Shown in pieces: positions 14,442 to 23,814 of a stretch of 64,000 bases of DNA. Below the pieces are notes generated by a model. The model searched no databases and had not been told where the DNA came from. It worked only from the letters and a program-made list of their open reading frames with translations. Source of the stretch: Verrucomicrobium spinosum DSM 4136 = JCM 18804 (lineage in GTDB: Bacteria > Verrucomicrobiota > Verrucomicrobiia > Verrucomicrobiales > Verrucomicrobiaceae); the NCBI RefSeq assembly GCF_000172155.1, contig NZ_ABIZ01000001.1, positions 1,302,001 through 1,366,000 of the forward strand, read 5' to 3'. The position numbers and the translations under genes were made by a program. Position 1 is the first letter of the stretch, and each line of letters opens with the position of its first letter.

Positions 14442-15614
14442 TCACGCCATCGCGAGATGCTCGTCCTGCACGCGGGGCAGCCGGCCGTTCACCTCATTCA
14501 ACCGGCAGGTCTGGAGGCGGGGGAGGACGTACTTGGCGAAGAGATCACACTCGTGCAGGTGGGGATACCCGCTGAGGATGAAGGAGCGCATGCCCAGATC
14601 CATGTACTGTTGGAGCTTGGCATAGACTTGGTCAGGATCGCCGACGATGGCGCTGCCACAGCCGCTGCGCCCGCGACCGATGCCGCTCCACAGGTGGTCT
14701 TCGATGTAGCCTTCATCATCGGCATGAGCGCGGAGGGCATCCTGGCGGAGGACGCCGGCGGACTGGTGGTCCAGTGACCGGCATTTCGTCTCGCGGGCGC
14801 GGGCGTCGTCCAGTCGTGAGATGAGTTTGCGGGCGGCATCCCGCGCTTGGGACTCGGTCTCACGAACGATAACGTGAATCCGGAGCCCAAAGTCGAGAGC
14901 CCGGCCAAATCCAGAGGCCTGCCGGGAGAGGGAGCGCATGGTCTCGGCAAGTTGTGGCAGGGTCTCGGGCCACATCAGGAAGACATCGCAGAAGCGGGCG
15001 CAGAGCTCCTGGGCACGCGGTGAGATGCCACCGAAGTAGAGCAGGGGGCCGCCGTTCTGCTGGAAGGGCCGGGCGGCATCGGTACGGATGCGGGCGATGT
15101 CGTAGAAGTCGCCTTTGAAAGCGAGCTCGTTCTGAGTCCAGCACTGCTTGAGGATCTGCAGCACCTCCGCGCTGCGGGCGTAGCGGGCCTCGTTATCCTG
15201 GTCCATGCCCGGGAGGTTGGAGGAGATGATGTTCAGGGCCAGACGGCCACGGGCAATGTGGTCCAGAGTGGCAATGGCGCGGGCCAGCATGGGCGGGTGC
15301 ACCTCACCCATGCGCAGGGCCACGAGTTGGTGGATCTGCCGGGTGAGCACGGCCATGGAGAAGGCGAAGCCGAGGGCGTCCTGCCCCTCGGTCCAGCCAG
15401 AGGACAGGAGCACGTTTTGATAGCCATGCTCATCGGCCCGGCGGACAATCTCCGAACAATGCTCAAAACTGCTCCGGTGATGCGGTGCCGGGTCGCCCAG
15501 GAATTCGCAGTCGTCTGAGCACAGTGCTCCAAACCACGCAATCTCGGCCTGACGGCGGCGAGTTCGAATCCGGATTCCTTGCGCAGGATCGACAGGTGTA
15601 TGAGGAGGCACCAT
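14442..15614 (-). CDS. SsuD-type FMNH2-dependent sulfonate monooxygenase (LLM class)
   Basis: A 390-residue luciferase-like monooxygenase closest in pattern to alkanesulfonate monooxygenase SsuD. Seen: TLDHIARGRLALNIISSNLPG, DVFLMWPETLPQL (SsuD has a similar YLTWGEP segment), HLWSGIGRGRSGCGSAIVGD near the C-terminus and the hallmark FILSGYPHLHE. Known for the family: with FMNH2 from a separate reductase and O2 it cleaves the C-S bond of a sulfonate, giving sulfite and an aldehyde. No flavin reductase gene is in the window. ATG 15614 is used; a TTG eight codons upstream is possible. The divergent operon encodes sulfite oxidation, which supports a desulfonating role. The substrate is unknown. 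Confidence 0.78.
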   Translation of the reverse strand: MVPPHTPVDPAQGIRIRTRRRQAEIAWFGALCSDDCEFLGDPAPHHRSSFEHCSEIVRRADEHGYQNVLLSSGWTEGQDALGFAFSMAVLTRQIHQLVALRMGEVHPPMLARAIATLDHIARGRLALNIISSNLPGMDQDNEARYARSAEVLQILKQCWTQNELAFKGDFYDIARIRTDAARPFQQNGGPLLYFGGISPRAQELCARFCDVFLMWPETLPQLAETMRSLSRQASGFGRALDFGLRIHVIVRETESQARDAARKLISRLDDARARETKCRSLDHQSAGVLRQDALRAHADDEGYIEDHLWSGIGRGRSGCGSAIVGDPDQVYAKLQQYMDLGMRSFILSGYPHLHECDLFAKYVLPRLQTCRLNEVNGRLPRVQDEHLAMA

Positions 15615-15681
15615 GGCGATGGGATTATGGTTTTTCAAAAATAACCCGATTTATTCCCTTCACAAAGAATTTTCCTTTCGG

Positions 15682-15697
15682 CTGACCAATTGGTTAG
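15682..15697. promoter_or_regulatory. Palindrome in divergent promoter region, candidate ROK repressor operator
   Basis: The 69 bases between the SsuD-type gene and the dehydrogenase gene contain CTGACCAATTGGTTAG, a 16-base imperfect palindrome with a perfect ten-base core ACCAATTGGT at 15685-15694. It lies about 11 bases before ATG 15708, next to an AT-richer tract suited to promoters for both directions. The last gene of the operon encodes a winged-helix ROK regulator, the natural candidate to bind here. Inference from position only. Confidence 0.4.
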
Positions 15698-15707
15698 GCT
15701 GGGTGGA

Positions 15708-16811
15708 ATGCCGTTGAGAGAACATAAAGTGAGATTTGGCCTCGTTGGATACGGTGCCTGGGGCCGGCACCACGCGCAGGTCATCGCTGCCCACCCGGAA
15801 GCGGAACTGGCGGGGGTGGTGACTCCCTCTGAGGCATCGCGTGCGGAGGCGCGGGCGCGCTTTCCGGGGGTGGGGGTGTTTGAGACGGCGCAACAGATGC
15901 TGGAAACGCTCGCCCTGGAGGTGGTGGACGTAGTGGCCCCCAATCATGTGCATTTCCCCATCGCAGCGGCGGCCCTGAAGGCGGGCTGTCATGTGCTGCT
16001 GGAGAAGCCGATGGCGACGACACTAGCCGATTGCCACGCGCTCATGGCGCTGGCGGAGCAGGCGGGGCGGCAGATCCTGGTGGGGCATGAGTTGCGGCTG
16101 TCCTCCCAGTGGGGGCGCATCAAGGAGATTATCGATCAGGGAGGCATCGGCGTACCGTGGAACGTGCTGGTGGAGCTGTCCCGTCGGCCCTACCGCCTGG
16201 GCTCTGACGGCTGGAGGTATGACCCGGACCGGGTGGGGGACTGGATGCTGGAGGAGCCGGTGCACTTCTTTGACCTGGCGCGTTGGTACCTGGAGCAACA
16301 CGGAGAGCCAGCCACCATCTATGCCTCTGCCAATGCCGTGGACGACGCCCGCCCCTCCCTGCACGACAACGTGACCGCCATCGTGCGCCATGCGACGGGG
16401 GCGCAGGCGACTATTTGCCAGACGCTGGCAGCCTTTGGTCATCATCAGACGGTGAAAGTGACGGGCAGCAAGGGGGCCATCTGGGCCAGCTGGAGCGGGG
16501 CCACGGACCGCGTGCCGGACCCCGTCTGCACCCTGCGGGTTTACGATGGCCAGACGGTGGAGGATCTGGAGCTGCATAGGCCCTCTGGGGAACTGATCGA
16601 ACTCCAGGCAGAGATCGCCCACTGCATCCGGATGGTGAAGGAGGGGGTCCCGCCTGCGGTGAATGCGAACGACGGCCTGTGGAGTGTGGGGCTTTGTCTG
16701 GCGGCAGGGGCCTCCACCCAATCGAGGGGAATGATCGAACTGGAGGACTTCCTCCATGGTGGTACCCCCTATCCACCTATGAGGAGGGAAATCCCTAAAA
16801 CCAGCCTGTGA
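15708..16811 (+). CDS. Gfo/Idh/MocA family NAD(P)-dependent oxidoreductase
   Basis: A 367-residue protein. N-terminal Rossmann fold with GLVGYGAWGRHHAQVI (~10-25), then VDVVAPNHVHFPIAAAAL and the family-defining LLEKPMATT (EKP, ~100-108). The C-terminal alpha/beta domain has GDWMLEEPVHFFDLARW, the place of the catalytic D/H pair (EEPVHFFD). Known for the family: hydride transfer on sugar hydroxyls or aldehydes and related cyclitols. It heads the sulfite operon; its stop overlaps a possible GTG of the next gene. In this context it may reduce the aldehyde left after desulfonation or oxidise the sulfonated sugar first. ATG 15708 fits the fold better than the TTG at 15690. Confidence 0.82.
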   Translation: MPLREHKVRFGLVGYGAWGRHHAQVIAAHPEAELAGVVTPSEASRAEARARFPGVGVFETAQQMLETLALEVVDVVAPNHVHFPIAAAALKAGCHVLLEKPMATTLADCHALMALAEQAGRQILVGHELRLSSQWGRIKEIIDQGGIGVPWNVLVELSRRPYRLGSDGWRYDPDRVGDWMLEEPVHFFDLARWYLEQHGEPATIYASANAVDDARPSLHDNVTAIVRHATGAQATICQTLAAFGHHQTVKVTGSKGAIWASWSGATDRVPDPVCTLRVYDGQTVEDLELHRPSGELIELQAEIAHCIRMVKEGVPPAVNANDGLWSVGLCLAAGASTQSRGMIELEDFLHGGTPYPPMRREIPKTSL

Positions 16812-16828
16812 TTGAGCGTTCCCGTCTT

Positions 16829-18037
16829 ATGCACTCCACCACCCCCACTCGACGTCACTTTCTCCAAAAAGCAGGACTTGCCACCCTGGGCCTCGCTGGC
16901 ACGCTGGGTGCGGCGGACAGTGTGGTGCTGCCGTTTGAGAACGGGGAGCGCAGGCTGGTGAAGTTTCCCCAGAAGCGGCCGCTCATCCTTCTGACGCACC
17001 GCCCTCCGCAGCTGGAGACGCCGTTTGAGGTGTTCAAGGACGTGATCACGCCCAATGATGCGTTCTTTGTGCGGTACCATCTGTCCAACATCCCCCGCAC
17101 GGTGGATGAGCAAGCGTTCCGGCTGGAAGTGAAAGGGCTGGTGAATGCGCCACTGAAGCTGTCTCTGGAGGAGCTCAAAAAAGACTTTGAGCAGGCGGAG
17201 GTTGTTGCCGTGAACCAATGCTCCGGGAACAGCCGTGGTTTCTTCAAACCCCGCGTGGGCGGCGGCCAGCTCGGCCATGGAGCGATGGGCAATGCACGCT
17301 GGAAAGGGGTGCGGCTGAAGGATGTGTTGCAGAAAGCAGGAGTGCAGGCCGGGGCCAGACAAGTGGTGTGCAACGGACTGGACACGCCGCCTGTGCCGCA
17401 GACGCCGGATTTCATCAAGGCGCTGGAGATGGATCACGCTCTGGATGGTGAAGTCCTGCTGGCATGGGAGATGAACGGTGAACCGCTGCCGCTGCTGAAT
17501 GGCTACCCGCTGCGCCTGGTGGTGCCGGGCTATTACGGCACGTACTGGGTCAAGCACGTGAATGAGCTCACGGTGGTGAAAGACGTGTTTGACGGCTTCT
17601 TCATGGCCACGGGCTACCGCATCCCAGCCAACGCGGGTGGTTGCGTGGAGCCCGGCACGACGCCGGCGAGCACGATCCCGATCAACAAGTTCACCATCCG
17701 CTCCTTCATCACCAGTCTGGCGGACGGGGCAACGGTGACAGCCGGGCAGGCCACGGTGGTGCAGGGCATCGCGTTTGATGGCGGCGAGGGCATCACGGAG
17801 GTGACCTTCTCTGATGACGGGGGGCGCACCTGGAGGGGGGCCGAGCTGGGCAAGGATCATGGAAAGTACTCCTTCCGCCCGTGGAGCTTTGCCTGGACCC
17901 CGCCGAAGAAGGGGGCCTGGGAGCTGCGCTGCCGGGCGGCCAACCGCGTGGGCCAGACCCAGCCGATGGAGCCGCTGTGGAACCCGGCTGGGTACCTCCG
18001 CAATGTGGTGGAGACTGTGAAGGTCTCCGCGGCCTGA
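16829..18037 (+). CDS. Tat-exported sulfite dehydrogenase, molybdopterin subunit (SorA-like)
   Basis: A 402-residue sulfite oxidase family protein. The twin-arginine signal TRRHFLQKAG at ~7-16 sends it folded to the periplasm. The molybdenum-ligating cysteine is in VNQCSGNSRGFFKPR (Cys ~131). Further family blocks: LAWEMNGEPLPLLNGYPLRL, VVPGYYGTYWVKHV and the C-terminal dimerisation domain with FDGGEGITEVTFSDDGGRTW. Known for SorAB enzymes: sulfite + H2O to sulfate with two electrons passed to cytochrome c. The next gene encodes a small cytochrome c, as in sorAB. GTG 16808 overlapping the upstream stop is an alternative start. Confidence 0.88.
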   Translation: MHSTTPTRRHFLQKAGLATLGLAGTLGAADSVVLPFENGERRLVKFPQKRPLILLTHRPPQLETPFEVFKDVITPNDAFFVRYHLSNIPRTVDEQAFRLEVKGLVNAPLKLSLEELKKDFEQAEVVAVNQCSGNSRGFFKPRVGGGQLGHGAMGNARWKGVRLKDVLQKAGVQAGARQVVCNGLDTPPVPQTPDFIKALEMDHALDGEVLLAWEMNGEPLPLLNGYPLRLVVPGYYGTYWVKHVNELTVVKDVFDGFFMATGYRIPANAGGCVEPGTTPASTIPINKFTIRSFITSLADGATVTAGQATVVQGIAFDGGEGITEVTFSDDGGRTWRGAELGKDHGKYSFRPWSFAWTPPKKGAWELRCRAANRVGQTQPMEPLWNPAGYLRNVVETVKVSAA

Positions 18038-18080
18038 GCTGATGATTCACTGTTTCATATAACCCCATTTTCCCCTTCCC

Positions 18081-18401
18081 ATGAAGCTTTCCCATCTGGC
18101 TCTTCCTTTCGCTCTGCTTGGCACCGCATTTCTCGTCCCCGGCACTGCTGCGCCGCTGCCGAAGGAGGAGGACTGGCCTGCGGAAACCGGCACCTACAAA
18201 GCCGGACCGGGCGTGGAGCTGGCGCAGTCCCTTTGCATCACCTGCCACTCGGTGGAGTATGTCTCCACCCAGCCGCCCCTCCCGCGGAAGTTCTGGGACG
18301 GGGTGGTGAAGAAGATGAAAGACAAGTATGGCGCTCCGCTGCCGGATGAGACCACCGCACTGGTGGATTATCTGACCACGACCTATGGCTCAGGCAAGTG
18401 A
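18081..18401 (+). CDS. Small periplasmic cytochrome c (SorB-like)
   Basis: A 106-residue protein with a signal peptide (MKLSHLALPFALLGTAFLVP, cleavage near TAA) and one haem c site CITCH at ~52-56. A possible axial Met lies in VVKKMKDKYG (~79). The size fits the SorB subunit, the electron acceptor of the periplasmic SorA sulfite dehydrogenase, which is encoded 43 bases upstream. It would pass electrons from sulfite to the respiratory chain. The coding end overlaps the start of the MFS gene by 17 bases. Confidence 0.85.
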   Translation: MKLSHLALPFALLGTAFLVPGTAAPLPKEEDWPAETGTYKAGPGVELAQSLCITCHSVEYVSTQPPLPRKFWDGVVKKMKDKYGAPLPDETTALVDYLTTTYGSGK

Positions 18402-19680
18402 CGCCCTGAATGTCCCGCATCATTGGTGGCATGGTGTGAGCCGCTACCAATGGATGGTGCTTCTCATCGCCTCGGCGGGATGGGTGTTCGACGCGTTTGA
18501 AGGGCAACTCTTCAACGTGACCCGGGCTGACATGCTGCCGGCGATCCTGGGAACGGGGGAGCCGGAGGCGGTCAAGCTGTGGGGGGAACGGTTCTTGGGC
18601 ATCTTCCTCATTGGGGGTACCGTGGGTGGCTGGCTCTTTGGCTCGCTGGCGGACCGCTGGGGGCGGCGGCCGGTGATGATCCTGACCATTCTGTTTTACT
18701 CAGTCTTCTCGGGGTTGATGTTCTTTGCCACCGAGCTCTGGCAGGTGGGAGTGCTGAGATTCCTGGTCGCCATGGGCGTGGCCGGGGAGTGGGCGGTGGG
18801 GGCCGCGCTGGTGGCAGAGGTCTTCCCCCAGGAGTCCCGCGCCCGGGCGGCGGGCATTTACCATTCCTCCAGTGTCATTGGTCTGTGGCTCGCCGCTGTG
18901 GTGGGTATTGTGGTGGGGACAGACTGGCGGCTGGCTTACCTGGTGGGCATTGTGCCCGCGTTGCTCGTCATCTGGGTGCGCGCTGGCATTCGCGAGCCGG
19001 AGCCGTGGCAGCAGGCCCGCATGAAGCGGCAGGGGCGTCTGGGCAGCTTTAGCGAGCTCTTGTTGGATCCCTTCTGCAGAAAGAGAGCCCTGCTGGGTGC
19101 CTGTCTGGCGATGGTGGGCCTGGCCACCTTCTGGGGGGTGGTCATTGCGGGGCAGGATCTGGCAAGAGAGCTTCTCCTGGCTCAAGGGCATGCGTCAGGC
19201 GAGGCTGCAACTGAGGCAAAGTTTGCCTACGGATTTATCCAGACTCTGGGTGCGGCTTTGGGCATGCTTTCGTTCGGCCCTTTGAGTGTAAAGCTGGGTC
19301 GGAGAGGAGCATTTGCGCTAATGCATGTTGGCGCGATCATCATCACGCCTGCGGTGTGCTGGCTGCCTCAGGCGTACGACAGCTATCCGCTGCTGCTGTG
19401 TCTGCTTCCTGTCTTTGGCTTCTTCACACTGGGCATGCACTCTGGCTATGCCGTGTATTTCCCGGAGTTGTTCCCCACACATCTGCGCGCCACGGGCGCT
19501 GGCTTTTGCTTCAACACGGGAAGAATTTTGGCCGCGCCAGTGCTGTTTTGGCTGTCTGGCGGGCTCAAAGCTGCCTTCGCTCTTTCTACGGCTATTTCAA
19601 TCTTATCTGGATTTTTTCTGGTCGGATTATTGATTCTGGTATTTCTTCCTGAAACCAAAGGGGAAGAACTACCGGATTAA
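18385..19680 (+). CDS. MFS transporter, sugar/organic-acid porter type
   Basis: A 431-residue major facilitator with about twelve membrane helices. Seen: GGWLFGSLADRWGRRPVM (the G---D--GRR motif A of loop 2-3), GVAGEWAVGAALVAEVFP in helices 4-5, and the loop 8-9 version KLGRRG. The GEWAVGAALVAE-FP pattern belongs to the sugar-porter / aromatic-acid / SV2-like subgroup of proton symporters. It starts inside the cytochrome gene and ends 7 bases before the regulator gene, so it is part of the operon. Likely role: uptake of the sulfonated substrate, or export of sulfate/sulfite. The direction is not visible. Confidence 0.8.
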   Translation: MAQASDALNVPHHWWHGVSRYQWMVLLIASAGWVFDAFEGQLFNVTRADMLPAILGTGEPEAVKLWGERFLGIFLIGGTVGGWLFGSLADRWGRRPVMILTILFYSVFSGLMFFATELWQVGVLRFLVAMGVAGEWAVGAALVAEVFPQESRARAAGIYHSSSVIGLWLAAVVGIVVGTDWRLAYLVGIVPALLVIWVRAGIREPEPWQQARMKRQGRLGSFSELLLDPFCRKRALLGACLAMVGLATFWGVVIAGQDLARELLLAQGHASGEAATEAKFAYGFIQTLGAALGMLSFGPLSVKLGRRGAFALMHVGAIIITPAVCWLPQAYDSYPLLLCLLPVFGFFTLGMHSGYAVYFPELFPTHLRATGAGFCFNTGRILAAPVLFWLSGGLKAAFALSTAISILSGFFLVGLLILVFLPETKGEELPD

Positions 19681-19687
19681 TAAGGTT

Positions 19688-20848
19688 ATGCTGGGATTGA
19701 AAGTTCAGGACAACGCGGATTTTGGTGCCGAAATTATTCGGAAGGTGAGGGAACACAGCGGCCTGTCGCGAGTGGAGCTTGCACGTGTCATTGGCGTGGC
19801 CGCATCGACCATCGGACGGCATGTGGATGCACTGGTGGCCACAGGCTACTTTACGGAAAGTGTGGAGCCCACGAAGGAGGCGGGGCGCCCGCCTACCCGG
19901 CTGCGGCCCAATCCCGCCCGGGGATGTTTCCTGGGTGTGGATTTCTATGCGGACATGATGTTCGCCACCGCCGTGAACTTTGCGCAGGAAACGATTGCAC
20001 AGCGAAAGGTGCCCCTGCAGGGGCAGATGGGTGTGGAGTCGGTGTTGAGAGAGATCACGGCCGCACTCGCTGAACTGACCCGGGAGACCCACCTGCCGCT
20101 GCTGGCGGTGGGGCTGGCTGTCCCGGGACGCGTGGATACCCGCCGCGGTGTGGGGCTGAAGTACGTGCATGTGCCGGGATGGGAGAACGTGCCGCTGTCA
20201 TCCATCATCAGTGACGCCGTGAACGCCCCGGTGTACATCGAGAACAACATCCGCACCATGTCCCTCGCGGAGCGGTGGTTTGGTGAAGGGCGCGGTTGCC
20301 AGGATCTGGTCTGCCTCGGCGTTCGCTATGGCATCGCCGCTGGGGTGATCCGTGATGGCCAGTTGGCCACCGGGCACCAGGAGCTGGGTGGGGAAATCCG
20401 CGGCTGGAACTGCCCGGTGTACAATGCTATGGAGGAAAAGTGGGAGTGGCGCTCCGGGGGCACGTTCGAAAAATACGCCTCGGTGACGGCGGCCCTGACC
20501 CGTTACAACACTCTGAGTGGATCCGACCTCGAACTGGAGGGTTTTCTGGAGAAGGCGCAGCAGGGTGACCAGCATGCTCTGACGGCTGTGCGTGAGGTGG
20601 CGGCGGTGCACGGCTGGGCGATTGCCCAGATGGTGCAGCTCATCGACCCTGAAATCGTTGTCGTGGCCGGCCCGTTGACGGCGCTCGGAGATCTCTATCT
20701 CGACTCGGTGCGCAACTTTGCCCTGCAATTCGAGAGCGACTACCATCCCAGCGTGCCGATCTTGATCTCAGAGCTCGGTGAGTTCGCCGGTGCGGTGGGG
20801 GCAGCGGCTCTGGCGCTGGAGAAATGGCGCCCCGCGGATGTGGGCTGA
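19688..20848 (+). CDS. ROK-family transcriptional regulator (NagC/XylR type)
   Basis: A 386-residue protein with an N-terminal winged helix (LSRVELARVIGVAASTIGRH, ~28-47, with the wing KEAGRPPTRLRP) and a C-terminal ROK domain (GCFLGVDFYADMMFATAVN, AVGLAVPGRVDTRRGVGL, IENNIRTMSLAERWFGEG, GHQELGGEIRGW). It lacks the usual CxCGxxGCxE zinc cluster, having WNCPVYNAMEEKWEW instead, so sugar kinase activity is unlikely. Such proteins repress catabolic operons and release DNA on binding a sugar. It is the last gene before a strong terminator, so it probably controls its own operon and the divergent monooxygenase gene. Confidence 0.85.
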   Translation: MLGLKVQDNADFGAEIIRKVREHSGLSRVELARVIGVAASTIGRHVDALVATGYFTESVEPTKEAGRPPTRLRPNPARGCFLGVDFYADMMFATAVNFAQETIAQRKVPLQGQMGVESVLREITAALAELTRETHLPLLAVGLAVPGRVDTRRGVGLKYVHVPGWENVPLSSIISDAVNAPVYIENNIRTMSLAERWFGEGRGCQDLVCLGVRYGIAAGVIRDGQLATGHQELGGEIRGWNCPVYNAMEEKWEWRSGGTFEKYASVTAALTRYNTLSGSDLELEGFLEKAQQGDQHALTAVREVAAVHGWAIAQMVQLIDPEIVVVAGPLTALGDLYLDSVRNFALQFESDYHPSVPILISELGEFAGAVGAAALALEKWRPADVG

Positions 20849-20878
20849 TCGCCTGCGGGTTATTTGCAGATTTAGATA

Positions 20879-20918
20879 AAAAGGACGGGGGCCCCATGGG
20901 GCCCCGTTCTTTTTTATA
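20879..20918. terminator. Strong rho-independent terminator, possibly bidirectional
   Basis: A long GC stem around the perfect palindrome GCCCCATGGGGC (20890-20901), widened by GACGGG on the left and CCCGTTC on the right. It is followed by TTTTTTATAA on the plus strand and preceded by a run of A that reads as T on the minus strand. It ends the 15.7-20.8 kb operon. Confidence 0.9.
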
Positions 20919-21066: not shown

Positions 21067-21912
21067 ATGGGTTTCTCCATGATCCGCCGTCTGGCACGAA
21101 AATGGCTCCTCAAACCCGCAAAGGGGAACTTCCGCATGACGTCCACGACCACTCACGAGACCTCGGAAACAGCCAACGGGCGGTTTAGCATGATGCTCGC
21201 CCACTTCGCGCTCGGCAGGCGGTCCGCTTCGATGGAGGAGCGATCCGTGCTCTGCCGGATCCTTGATGGAAGAGACCTCGATGAGGTCTGCCCGGTTGAC
21301 TCCGCCGTGCTCACGCTGGAGGAAAGGGCTCACTACCACGCCACCTTGAGGGATCGCCGAACGTGTGCGCTGGCGGTTCGCACCAGGGCGGAACTGCGAC
21401 GCATGCTGGGCCGGGAGATCGGCCTGCCGCCGAACCTGGTGCCGCTGCGGATGGATGTGCATGGCAAGCCGCGCTGTATGCATCCCCTGGCGAGTGATCT
21501 GGACTTCAGCGTGGCGCACGCAGAGGAGTGTGCGCTGATCATCCTGGGGGAAGCGGCGGGCATCGGGGTGGATGTCGAGGAAATAGACGAGCATGAGCCG
21601 TCTGATGAGCATTTGGAGATCGCTTTCACCGAGGATGAGCATCTGGCTTGGTCCTGTCTGCCCGCGGAGTTGCGGCGGCGTGCCTTTGCGGAGGCCTGGA
21701 CCATCAAAGAGGCTTCACTGAAAGCGATGGGCGTCGGGCTGGATGGCTCTCCCCATGAGATTCAGGTGCACTTTGATGCCGCAGGCAATGCATGGCCCAT
21801 TTTCCCCGGACCGGGCTGGGCCTTTGAGCGGATCCGCTTCTGCCCGCGGCACGTGGCAAGCTTTGTCGCGATGCTGACGCCGGCCTGCTTCGCAGGAGAC
21901 AGAAGACTTTAA
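21067..21912 (+). CDS. 4'-Phosphopantetheinyl transferase (Sfp type)
   Basis: A 281-residue Sfp-type transferase that moves 4'-phosphopantetheine from CoA to a carrier-protein serine. Seen: LDFSVAHAEECALIILG, the Mg-binding GIGVDVEEID, FTEDEHLAW and FAEAWTIKEASLKAMGVGL, which holds the W-x-KEA motif. The middle has a CoA-binding-like RTRAELRRMLGREIGLPP. No polyketide or peptide synthetase is in the window. The start is uncertain: ATGs at 21067 and 21079 precede an arginine-rich stretch. Odd: the last seven codons (FAGDRRL) and the stop come from a dispersed repeat shared with 14044-14100. Confidence 0.83.
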   Translation: MGFSMIRRLARKWLLKPAKGNFRMTSTTTHETSETANGRFSMMLAHFALGRRSASMEERSVLCRILDGRDLDEVCPVDSAVLTLEERAHYHATLRDRRTCALAVRTRAELRRMLGREIGLPPNLVPLRMDVHGKPRCMHPLASDLDFSVAHAEECALIILGEAAGIGVDVEEIDEHEPSDEHLEIAFTEDEHLAWSCLPAELRRRAFAEAWTIKEASLKAMGVGLDGSPHEIQVHFDAAGNAWPIFPGPGWAFERIRFCPRHVASFVAMLTPACFAGDRRL

Positions 21913-22149: not shown

Positions 22150-23814
22150 CTACGAGGTGGGCGTTGACTTCGTGGCGGGAATGACCGTCTCGGCGGGCTT
22201 CAACGGTGCGGACACCGGGGAAGATGGCGGGCTCACTGGCAGGGGGGTGCTGGAGGCGGGGGACCCTGGCACCGGGGACGAGGTGGCGGCGGGTGGCGTG
22301 GTGCCGGGAGGGGTTGTGGCCAGCGGCGGTGCCGCGGGCAGGGTGGTGGCCGGGGGCGGTGGGGTGACCGTGGCGGGGGCTGGGAAGGGGTTCTCCCAGG
22401 TGTGGAGCACGTAGCCATCACCCACGCCGCCTACGTCGGTCAGGTAGGCATTCACCTTCTCACGCCACTTCTGGAGGTCGGGAGGGCCAAAGGGGCGCTC
22501 CGCCGTGCCGGGGAAGATGAGGTAGGTCACCTTCAGGTCACTCTCGGGCCGATTGTAGGGGGTGGACTTTTCGTTGATCTTCTTGGCCACCATGAGGGAG
22601 GCCTCGCCCATCTTCATGGTGGGGCCGTAGTCGCCGCAGATGGCGGGCAGGATCTGGTTGCCGTGGATGATCGCAGCGTAGTCACCGATACTGGGCGCAT
22701 GGGGGTGGACCTTGGGGTAGTCCCGGAAGAGCAGGGAGATGACAATGAAGGGGTCCTTCTCAGCAATGAGGCTGCTGCGGCTCTTCAGCGCTTTGACGAT
22801 GCGCTCAGCCTCATCCATCTCGGACTTGAACTCGGCCTTCTTGGCACTGGAGAGGCCTTTTTTGCCGTACTCAGCCTTGGCGGACTCGAACCGGCCCTGC
22901 CAGCGGGGCAGGAGGGGGTTCGTGGTAGAGCTTCTCTTGGCCCATTCGTAGGTGGTGAAGGGCTGGTAGTAGTCACTGTTGTAGATGTCCGCGCTCATGA
23001 CCGGCATGCGGTCGCCATCGGAACCGTCGGCCACGACGTCCATCTCGCTCTGAATGAGGAGGACGTTGCGCTTGGAGACGGGGTGGGTGAGTTCGAGGAT
23101 GGTCTCGCAGTCGAAGAAGTTGTGCCGGTCCAGGATCTTGTTCAGGCGGGTCAGGTTCTGCTGTACCATGCTGGCCTTGCGCTCATAGAGCTTGTGGTAG
23201 AAGCCGGAGACTTTGGCGTTGTTGTCCAGCATGGACTTGAGTCCGGGCAGGGCCTTGGGCAGCTCGGGATTGATGCGGGCCAGTTCATCCAGGGACTCGT
23301 TTGGCTTGGGGATGCGGATCTTGAGCTGGAAGTCCACGGTGTAGGCGTCCTTGTCCGTGCGCTCGATGCTGGCAAACTTGCCTTCCTCCGTCTGGAGGGT
23401 GGTCTGGATGGTGAGGCCGTTGAAGAGGGTGGCGGCATCCACCTCCTTGCGTGCGATGAACTTGGACGGCAGCGGGGGGGGCGGAGCGGGCACCTCCACC
23501 TCCACGATTTTTTCCACCGTCTTCTCCTTGAATACGGGGACTTCCTTCGTGACGTCGCGCACGACGACCTTGCCGCTGCGGGCCTTCTCCACGATCTCGA
23601 TCAAGGAGCGCTTGATCTTGCCAGCATAGGGCGTGAAGGGCAGGACGAGGGCCAGGAGCAGTGTGGTGAAAAAGACAAAACGGGTCAGGGTTCCCCAGAA
23701 GCCGCGACGCCGCGGGTGCCAGCGCTCGGGCAGATTTTGTTCGTCATCAGGGGGCGGGAGGTCGGAACCACGACCGGAGCGCTTGGCGGACTTTGGGGTG
23801 TTTTTTTCGGCCAT
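22150..23814 (-). CDS. Membrane-anchored GH75 chitosanase-like protein with Pro/Thr-rich tail
   Basis: A 554-residue protein. A charged N-terminus is followed by a single membrane helix (~43-62, FVFFTTLLLALVLPFTPYAG), so it is probably type II anchored with the domain outside. Residues ~105-470 carry the GH75 chitosanase-like pattern: THPVSKRNVLLIQSEMDVVADGSDGDR, then YYQPFTTYEWAKRS, and the catalytic-domain block AIIHGNQILPAICGDYGP with GEASL. The last ~75 residues are almost only P, T, A and S, a likely linker or wall/matrix-spanning tail. Known for GH75: hydrolysis of chitosan. Whether this divergent member keeps that activity is unclear. Confidence 0.65.
   Translation of the reverse strand: MAEKNTPKSAKRSGRGSDLPPPDDEQNLPERWHPRRRGFWGTLTRFVFFTTLLLALVLPFTPYAGKIKRSLIEIVEKARSGKVVVRDVTKEVPVFKEKTVEKIVEVEVPAPPPPLPSKFIARKEVDAATLFNGLTIQTTLQTEEGKFASIERTDKDAYTVDFQLKIRIPKPNESLDELARINPELPKALPGLKSMLDNNAKVSGFYHKLYERKASMVQQNLTRLNKILDRHNFFDCETILELTHPVSKRNVLLIQSEMDVVADGSDGDRMPVMSADIYNSDYYQPFTTYEWAKRSSTTNPLLPRWQGRFESAKAEYGKKGLSSAKKAEFKSEMDEAERIVKALKSRSSLIAEKDPFIVISLLFRDYPKVHPHAPSIGDYAAIIHGNQILPAICGDYGPTMKMGEASLMVAKKINEKSTPYNRPESDLKVTYLIFPGTAERPFGPPDLQKWREKVNAYLTDVGGVGDGYVLHTWENPFPAPATVTPPPPATTLPAAPPLATTPPGTTPPAATSSPVPGSPASSTPLPVSPPSSPVSAPLKPAETVIPATKSTPTS

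Follow-up and report, generated by a model that had tools for sequence, protein, structure and literature searches.

A six-gene locus of the bacterium Verrucomicrobium spinosum DSM 4136 probably encodes a variant of the oxygen-dependent, sulfolytic sulfoquinovose monooxygenase (sulfo-SMO) pathway, and sulfoquinovose (SQ), a plant sulfosugar described as one of the most abundant organosulfur compounds, is the most likely substrate. The locus lies in a stretch of 64,000 nucleotides (here, the window) of a genome that is a single contig of 8,220,857 bases. A monooxygenase gene on the minus strand is divergent from genes for a Gfo/Idh/MocA oxidoreductase (hereafter Gfo), the sulfite dehydrogenase subunits SorA and SorB, a major facilitator superfamily (MFS) transporter and a ROK-family regulator. 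An initial annotation had placed these six genes here, with domains that open reading frames, Pfam and NCBIfam models confirm, and had read them as a candidate new locus for the desulfonation of an organosulfonate, probably a sulfosugar, with oxidation of the released sulfite. That function is supported by the membership of the monooxygenase in the SmoC clade and by the scores of SorA and SorB above curated cut-offs; the interpretation as a whole is partly supported. What appears to be new, to judge from the sequences, is a sulfo-SMO variant in a phylum for which we found no earlier report, together with one enzyme, the Gfo, that is seen only with SmoC.

The monooxygenase (14442–15638, minus strand; probable start at the internal ATG at 15614) is a putative luciferase-like monooxygenase (LLM) dependent on reduced flavin mononucleotide (FMNH2; PF00296, E = 1.5 × 10−46). 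Its top matches among solved structures are Protein Data Bank entries 7oh2 and 7olf (426 and 414 bits), which we take to be SmoC-type structures; SsuD-type entries score 187–199 bits. The assignment of 7olf to SmoC is supported because a Rhizobium SL42 protein that precedes an aldo-keto reductase (AKR) and a flavin reductase in an annotated cluster matches this structure with 800 bits. In a tree of 119 SmoC-clade and 6 outgroup rows (built by a quick method; the outgroup branches are long, as is the basal branch that carries one plasmid row, L178), the monooxygenase falls in the SmoC clade, which a branch of 1.47 with support 99 splits from SsuD, SfnG and others, and clusters with sequences from genomes G001–G004 and G014 (support 100); rows from Verrucomicrobiota are scattered and do not form one clade. 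The tree places it away from SsuD and SfnG and outside the non-sulfonate LLM enzymes. It keeps 43 of the 51 columns that distinguish 21 SmoB-linked SmoC sequences from two SsuD sequences, and its R253, H255, R324 and Y358 align with positions 227, 229, 298 and 332 of Escherichia coli SsuD, presumably active-site residues of that enzyme. On these comparisons the monooxygenase is of the SmoC type and is not SsuD: the ‘SsuD-type’ label of the initial annotation falls on the separate clade and on a score of 250 bits against the SsuD model TIGR03565, which has a curated cut-off of 518.2.

Parts of the gene set recur across relatives of V. spinosum. A SmoC homologue (E ≤ 1 × 10−60) is present in 75 of 142 genomes from the genus, family and order (one verrucomicrobial order; the genome of the window is counted). 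We compared 41 loci, the window plus a choice of 40 from the other 74 that favoured longer contigs, and found within 6 kb of SmoC a Gfo in 28, an MFS transporter in 27 and a ROK protein in 29, the last being a family-level match beyond the genus and its closest relatives, where identities are mostly about 30–43%. Because these three genes recur in 27–29 loci and the flanking genes of the window (encoding a DUF4407 protein, a MacB-like permease and a 4′-phosphopantetheinyl transferase) in three each, the window and its two nearest relatives, the gene set is more than a chance assembly. Genome-wide, with the best 12–13 candidates per genome scored, Gfo occurs in 60 of 75 SmoC-positive and 0 of 67 SmoC-negative genomes (P = 3.5 × 10−26; Fisher values, here and below, ignore shared ancestry), and inside the family in 58 of 59 compared with 0 of 9; the MFS transporter, scored in the same way, occurs in 73 of 75 and 7 of 67. 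Gfo is not always linked to SmoC: several copies lie elsewhere in their genomes. Another family (f3) accounts for 14 of the 15 SmoC-positive genomes without Gfo, and the remaining one is 52% complete. Several f3 loci have a Gfo with a signal like that of the twin-arginine translocation (Tat) pathway adjoining MFS and ROK genes; L060, L064, L065, L080, L086 and L089 show this arrangement divergent from SmoC, and none of these six loci gave a match to a cytosolic Gfo. Among these loci the complete six-gene set is confined to the genus (the window and 2 of the 40 others), and of the expectation that the set would be found together in relatives, the part that stands is the recurrence of Gfo, MFS and ROK. 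The conservation is real but partial, with a core that does not include SorAB.

Both sulfite dehydrogenase subunits are above their NCBIfam cut-offs. SorA (16808–18037, plus strand; NF052245, 662 bits, cut-off 600) is the catalytic subunit and aligns with the solved SorA 2blf from residue 36 to its end (550 bits). As had been annotated, its N terminus has what looks like a Tat-type export signal (RR-x-F-L, judged by eye), and the molybdenum cofactor (Moco) ligand is Cys138, within a motif, VNQCSGNSRG, that aligns with the same motif in 2blf; the c-type cytochrome subunit SorB (18081–18401, plus strand; NF052246, 98.7 bits, cut-off 93) has a C-x-x-C-H haem site (SLCITCHS). SorA and SorB lie within 6 kb of SmoC in 3 of the 41 loci, all of this genus, and in the six other SmoC-positive genomes with SorA (G004, G011, G013, G014, G025 and G069) the gene is distant from SmoC or on another contig. 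Across genomes, SorA occurs in 9 of 75 SmoC-positive and 11 of 67 SmoC-negative cases (P = 0.48). This absence of correlation and the genus-only linkage rule out SorAB as a member of the conserved set; the ‘built-in sulfite disposal’ that had been proposed holds for the operon in the window, as a genus-local addition. Sulfite dehydrogenase-like genes also adjoin SmoC in four Bacteroidota loci (L072, L130, L137 and L142), which we count in favour of the proposed pathway. At L072, on a Spirosoma oryzicola plasmid (8977–13408), a SmoC-clade monooxygenase gene is followed by genes for an amino-acid permease, a cytochrome c and an annotated soxC sulfite dehydrogenase; by gene content, SmoC-type desulfonation and sulfite oxidation have here been paired independently.

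A verrucomicrobial contig ties the set to sulfo-SMO. L084, from Opitutae, carries in one direction genes for an AKR (PF00248), SmoC, a Gfo 55.6% identical to that of the window, an MFS transporter, a 3-keto-disaccharide hydrolase (PF06439) and a Tat-like Gfo (296 bits against the BT_2158 glycoside 3-dehydrogenase model, under its cut-off of 750), and a partial flavin-reductase-like match also lies beside SmoC. Since a SmoB-like AKR, SmoC and the same Gfo and MFS transporter are joined here, the verrucomicrobial set is linked to the known pathway. Of 65 verrucomicrobial loci (some contigs among the 65 were fetched twice), one has such an AKR within 6 kb of SmoC, compared with 22 of the 63 loci that were not placed in Verrucomicrobiota; the 63 comprise 56 genome-scan contigs, one without a phylum, and 7 hand-picked plasmid loci (six from 29 matches read with their flanks, plus H2). 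The genome of the window has an unlinked SmoB-like AKR (G000:C1:95592-96464), as well as flavin reductase candidates, none of them linked (one PF01613 and six PF03358 matches). SmoB-like AKRs occur in 84 of the 142 genomes, and their association with SmoC (60 of 75 compared with 24 of 67; P = 8.7 × 10−8) arises because the AKR follows family: it is found in 57 of 59 and 9 of 9 genomes inside the family (P = 1), and in 3 of 16 and 15 of 58 outside it (P = 0.75). As a dedicated SmoB the unlinked AKR is non-diagnostic, since all nine SmoC-negative family members carry one.

The L084 hydrolase has counterparts. Genes of the 3-keto-disaccharide hydrolase type stand beside SmoC or its Gfo in L084 (4884–7148), L205 (6070–10928) and L207 (3983–5826), accompanied in L084 and L205 by a Tat-like Gfo. 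A profile search of 127 loci found PF06439 in six, L057 and L092 being copies of one contig; L207 was added by similarity and L205 by eye. These genes suggest that sulfosugar glycosides may take a 3-keto route, which we treat as a lead only, and a literature search on a 3-keto, Gfo or glycoside route in Verrucomicrobiota returned no paper.

In the pathway that we propose, the MFS transporter (18385–19680, plus strand; PF07690/PF00083) would act as an importer, presumably bringing in a sulfosugar, most likely SQ or a simple SQ glycoside. The SmoC-like monooxygenase would use O2, and FMNH2 from an unlinked flavin reductase, to cleave the C–S bond and yield 6-dehydroglucose and sulfite. The former may be reduced to glucose in an NAD(P)-dependent step by the Gfo or by an unlinked SmoB-like AKR, and the latter would be oxidized to sulfate, and so detoxified, by SorAB outside the cytosol. 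The ROK protein (19688–20848, plus strand; PF00480, E = 1.1 × 10−37), with N-terminal helix-turn-helix matches slightly under curated cut-offs, may control the locus in response to a sugar.

Several observations weigh against this assignment, besides the shared ancestry and limited candidate numbers behind the co-occurrence values and the independence of SorA from SmoC. The operon in the window contains neither SmoB nor a flavin reductase, and co-location with SmoB, the criterion for sulfo-SMO in PMC13372026, would leave this locus out, as no AKR lies there; the unlinked AKR looks like a housekeeping gene. Some SmoC-positive relatives, such as G119 and G125, have neither Gfo nor AKR. The Pfam model for GH31 detected the domain in none of 8 genomes (the controls gave 6 positives among 14 genomes), and a GH31 sulfoquinovosidase-like query matched 0 of 14 genomes, without a positive control. 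No GH188 was detected in the genome of the window at E ≤ 1 × 10−20, a threshold that would miss its own Gfo (3.6 × 10−17); at that threshold G119 and G125 were the only matches among 14 genomes, with 29–32% identity. A loop of the monooxygenase raises a further objection, considered below with the substrate.

The Gfo (15690–16811, plus strand; PF01408, E = 4 × 10−27; probable start at the ATG at 15708) has no signal peptide by eye and may serve as a 6-dehydroglucose reductase or as an oxidoreductive glycosidase. It is possible, albeit rather doubtful, that it is an NAD-dependent oxidoreductive sulfoquinovosidase outside GH188 that frees SQ from glycosides, with the unlinked AKR performing the SmoB step. 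GH188 shares its fold, and 8 of the 63 loci not placed in Verrucomicrobiota have a GH188 gene within 6 kb of SmoC, for example L102, where it directly follows a 60%-identical SmoC. Judged by the functional-site residues given in PMC10755693, among them the sulfonate-binding pair Arg166 and Lys172, the evidence divides. The Gfo is 24–26% identical to GH188 references. All 31 family members retain Lys107, Arg166, Glu189 and His193; however, Tyr136 is replaced by Leu (30) or Phe (1), Lys172 by Gly (31 of 31) and Glu163 by Leu (31 of 31), Leu170 aligns with Arg, and the column of His321 is unsure, its two candidates holding His in 13 and 0 of the 31. VIA-align places GH188 entries, at Z about 37, in a top tie with other Gfo/Idh enzymes, and the fold therefore does not discriminate; the AlphaFold model compared (mean pLDDT, the predicted local distance difference test, of 83) was built with one GH188 row among 10 input sequences and has low confidence at residues 169–183, the sulfonate-loop region. 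A profile that included the GH188 row L102 ranked GH188 first, whereas without GH188 rows 8qc2 came sixth, under ordinary dehydrogenases. This rank and the residues at Tyr136 and Lys172 rule out a canonical GH188.

The residues, as far as alignment can tell, favour a dehydrogenase or reductase, and a glycosidase role is favoured by the genomic setting, in which no GH31 and no near GH188 turned up and L084 has an AKR in addition. L084 has an AKR besides the Gfo, which makes a simple stand-in for SmoB unlikely, at least there; the f3 loci with a Tat-like Gfo beside MFS and ROK genes also point towards a glycosidase. That the SmoC-dependent Gfo family is a new sulfosugar enzyme, either as a further family of oxidoreductive sulfoquinovosidases in addition to GH188 or as a reductase of 6-dehydroglucose that is not related to SmoB, strikes us as an evenly balanced proposition. 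A Sphingobium yanoikuyae plasmid (pKN1; L178, 3974–13041) carries, in a single cluster, genes for a GH188-like Gfo, an AKR, a SmoC-like LLM, a phytanoyl-CoA dioxygenase-family protein, an MFS transporter, a sulfatase and a TonB receptor.

A second alternative, which we hold to be no more probable than the glycosidase proposal, is that the substrate is another sulfosugar or an alkanesulfonate, the SmoC clade having shifted its preference in this phylum. The S-Y-Q-V loop of SmoB-linked SmoC, which we take to lie near the active site, reads G-W-T-E in the window and is among the eight diagnostic columns missed. Its Tyr is replaced in all 57 verrucomicrobial SmoC rows, by Trp in the rows read, and the adjoining loop residues are mostly altered too; the substrate may therefore differ. 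No sulfoquinovosidase was found by the searches above, and three Cytophagales plasmid loci pair SmoC-clade genes with amino-acid permeases, an amidohydrolase or GH95, without an AKR. However, L084 pairs a SmoC of the Trp type with an AKR as in sulfo-SMO, most SmoC-diagnostic residues are kept, and Gfo and ROK are sugar-type partners. One Emticicia oligotrophica plasmid of 34 kb (pEMTOL05; L071, 6489–12417) has a SmoC-clade gene with genes for a sodium/solute symporter and a GH95 protein. It is very unlikely that the neighbours are unrelated and adjacent by accident, with the monooxygenase serving sulfur scavenging only: the lineage-specific SorAB and the genus-only six-gene set would fit this, but Gfo and MFS track SmoC across genera even when unlinked, and oxidizing sulfite to sulfate would be odd for scavenging.

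The layout of the locus is compact. In the listed open reading frames, Gfo and SorA overlap by 4 bases, SorA and SorB are 43 bases apart, SorB and MFS overlap by 17 and MFS and ROK are separated by 7. With the internal ATGs at 15614 (minus strand) and 15708 (plus strand) as the presumed starts, the divergent intergenic region spans 93 bases (15615–15707); it is partly AT-rich and is presumably the control region. A scan for sigma-70 consensus promoters gave 0 sites compared with 1.3 expected from shuffles. The terminator described at the end of the operon is borne out by an all-GC hairpin (20888–20905, plus strand; 7 GC pairs, a loop of 4 and a T run), 39 bases past the end of the ROK gene and terminator-like on either strand. 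Directly past it lies the 4′-phosphopantetheinyl transferase gene (21067–21912, plus strand), which apart from the window was seen near SmoC in just two loci, both of this genus, and a protein encoded at 22150–23814 (minus strand) modestly matches GH75 chitosanase (39 bits, cut-off 27).

If the SmoC-dependent Gfo is indeed a new enzyme, it would help to explain the use of plant sulfolipid by Verrucomicrobiota without GH31 or GH188, and its dependence on SmoC makes it a testable candidate for the missing pathway step. The consulted text of PMC12890257 and PMC9594981 gives mainly alpha- and betaproteobacterial hosts for sulfo-ASMO, and that of a 2026 survey (PMC13372026) adds Actinomycetota and Spirochaetota; none of these portions names as a sulfo-SMO host the phylum in which SmoC occurs in 75 of 142 genomes of one order, and no word beginning ‘Verrucomicrob’ appears in the main text of the survey. 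The survey demands SmoB co-located with SmoC, and surveys with this rule would miss nearly all of the loci described here because an AKR lies near SmoC in 1 of 65. The portion of PMC12555021 that was searched holds one match only, UDP-sulfoquinovose synthase. Titles and the starts of abstracts gave no report of the locus; supplementary tables might already list its genes.

Compared with sulfo-SMO and sulfo-ASMO (SmoA, SmoB and SmoC; Agrobacterium, Novosphingobium and the Roseobacter clade), the locus is alike in its SmoC-clade monooxygenase and sugar-type partners, and the verrucomicrobial L084 further shares the SmoB-like AKR and the partial flavin-reductase-like match by SmoC. The operon in the window differs in having no SmoB, SmoA, ABC or TRAP system or sulfoquinovosidase; it has Gfo/Idh, MFS, ROK and SorAB. 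The initial annotation goes too far in calling the locus a candidate new one: its core is known sulfo-SMO chemistry, and what differs is the Verrucomicrobiota host and a Gfo/Idh enzyme instead of or besides SmoB. With SsuD the monooxygenase shares the LLM fold and the Arg/His/Arg/Tyr positions, but it belongs to a separate clade and scores less than half of the TIGR03565 cut-off. The NAD-dependent sulfoquinovosidases of GH188 (SqgA; 8qc2 and 8qc6, also 8zn9) resemble the Gfo in the general Gfo/Idh fold, in the SmoC neighbourhood seen in other bacteria and in Lys107, Arg166, Glu189 and His193; the Gfo of the window is about 24% identical to them, with Tyr136 and Lys172 replaced and neither candidate column for His321 conserved. 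SorAB matches the known enzyme (solved SorA 2blf) in both subunits, with an identical context for the Moco cysteine, and is here placed inside a sulfonate operon.

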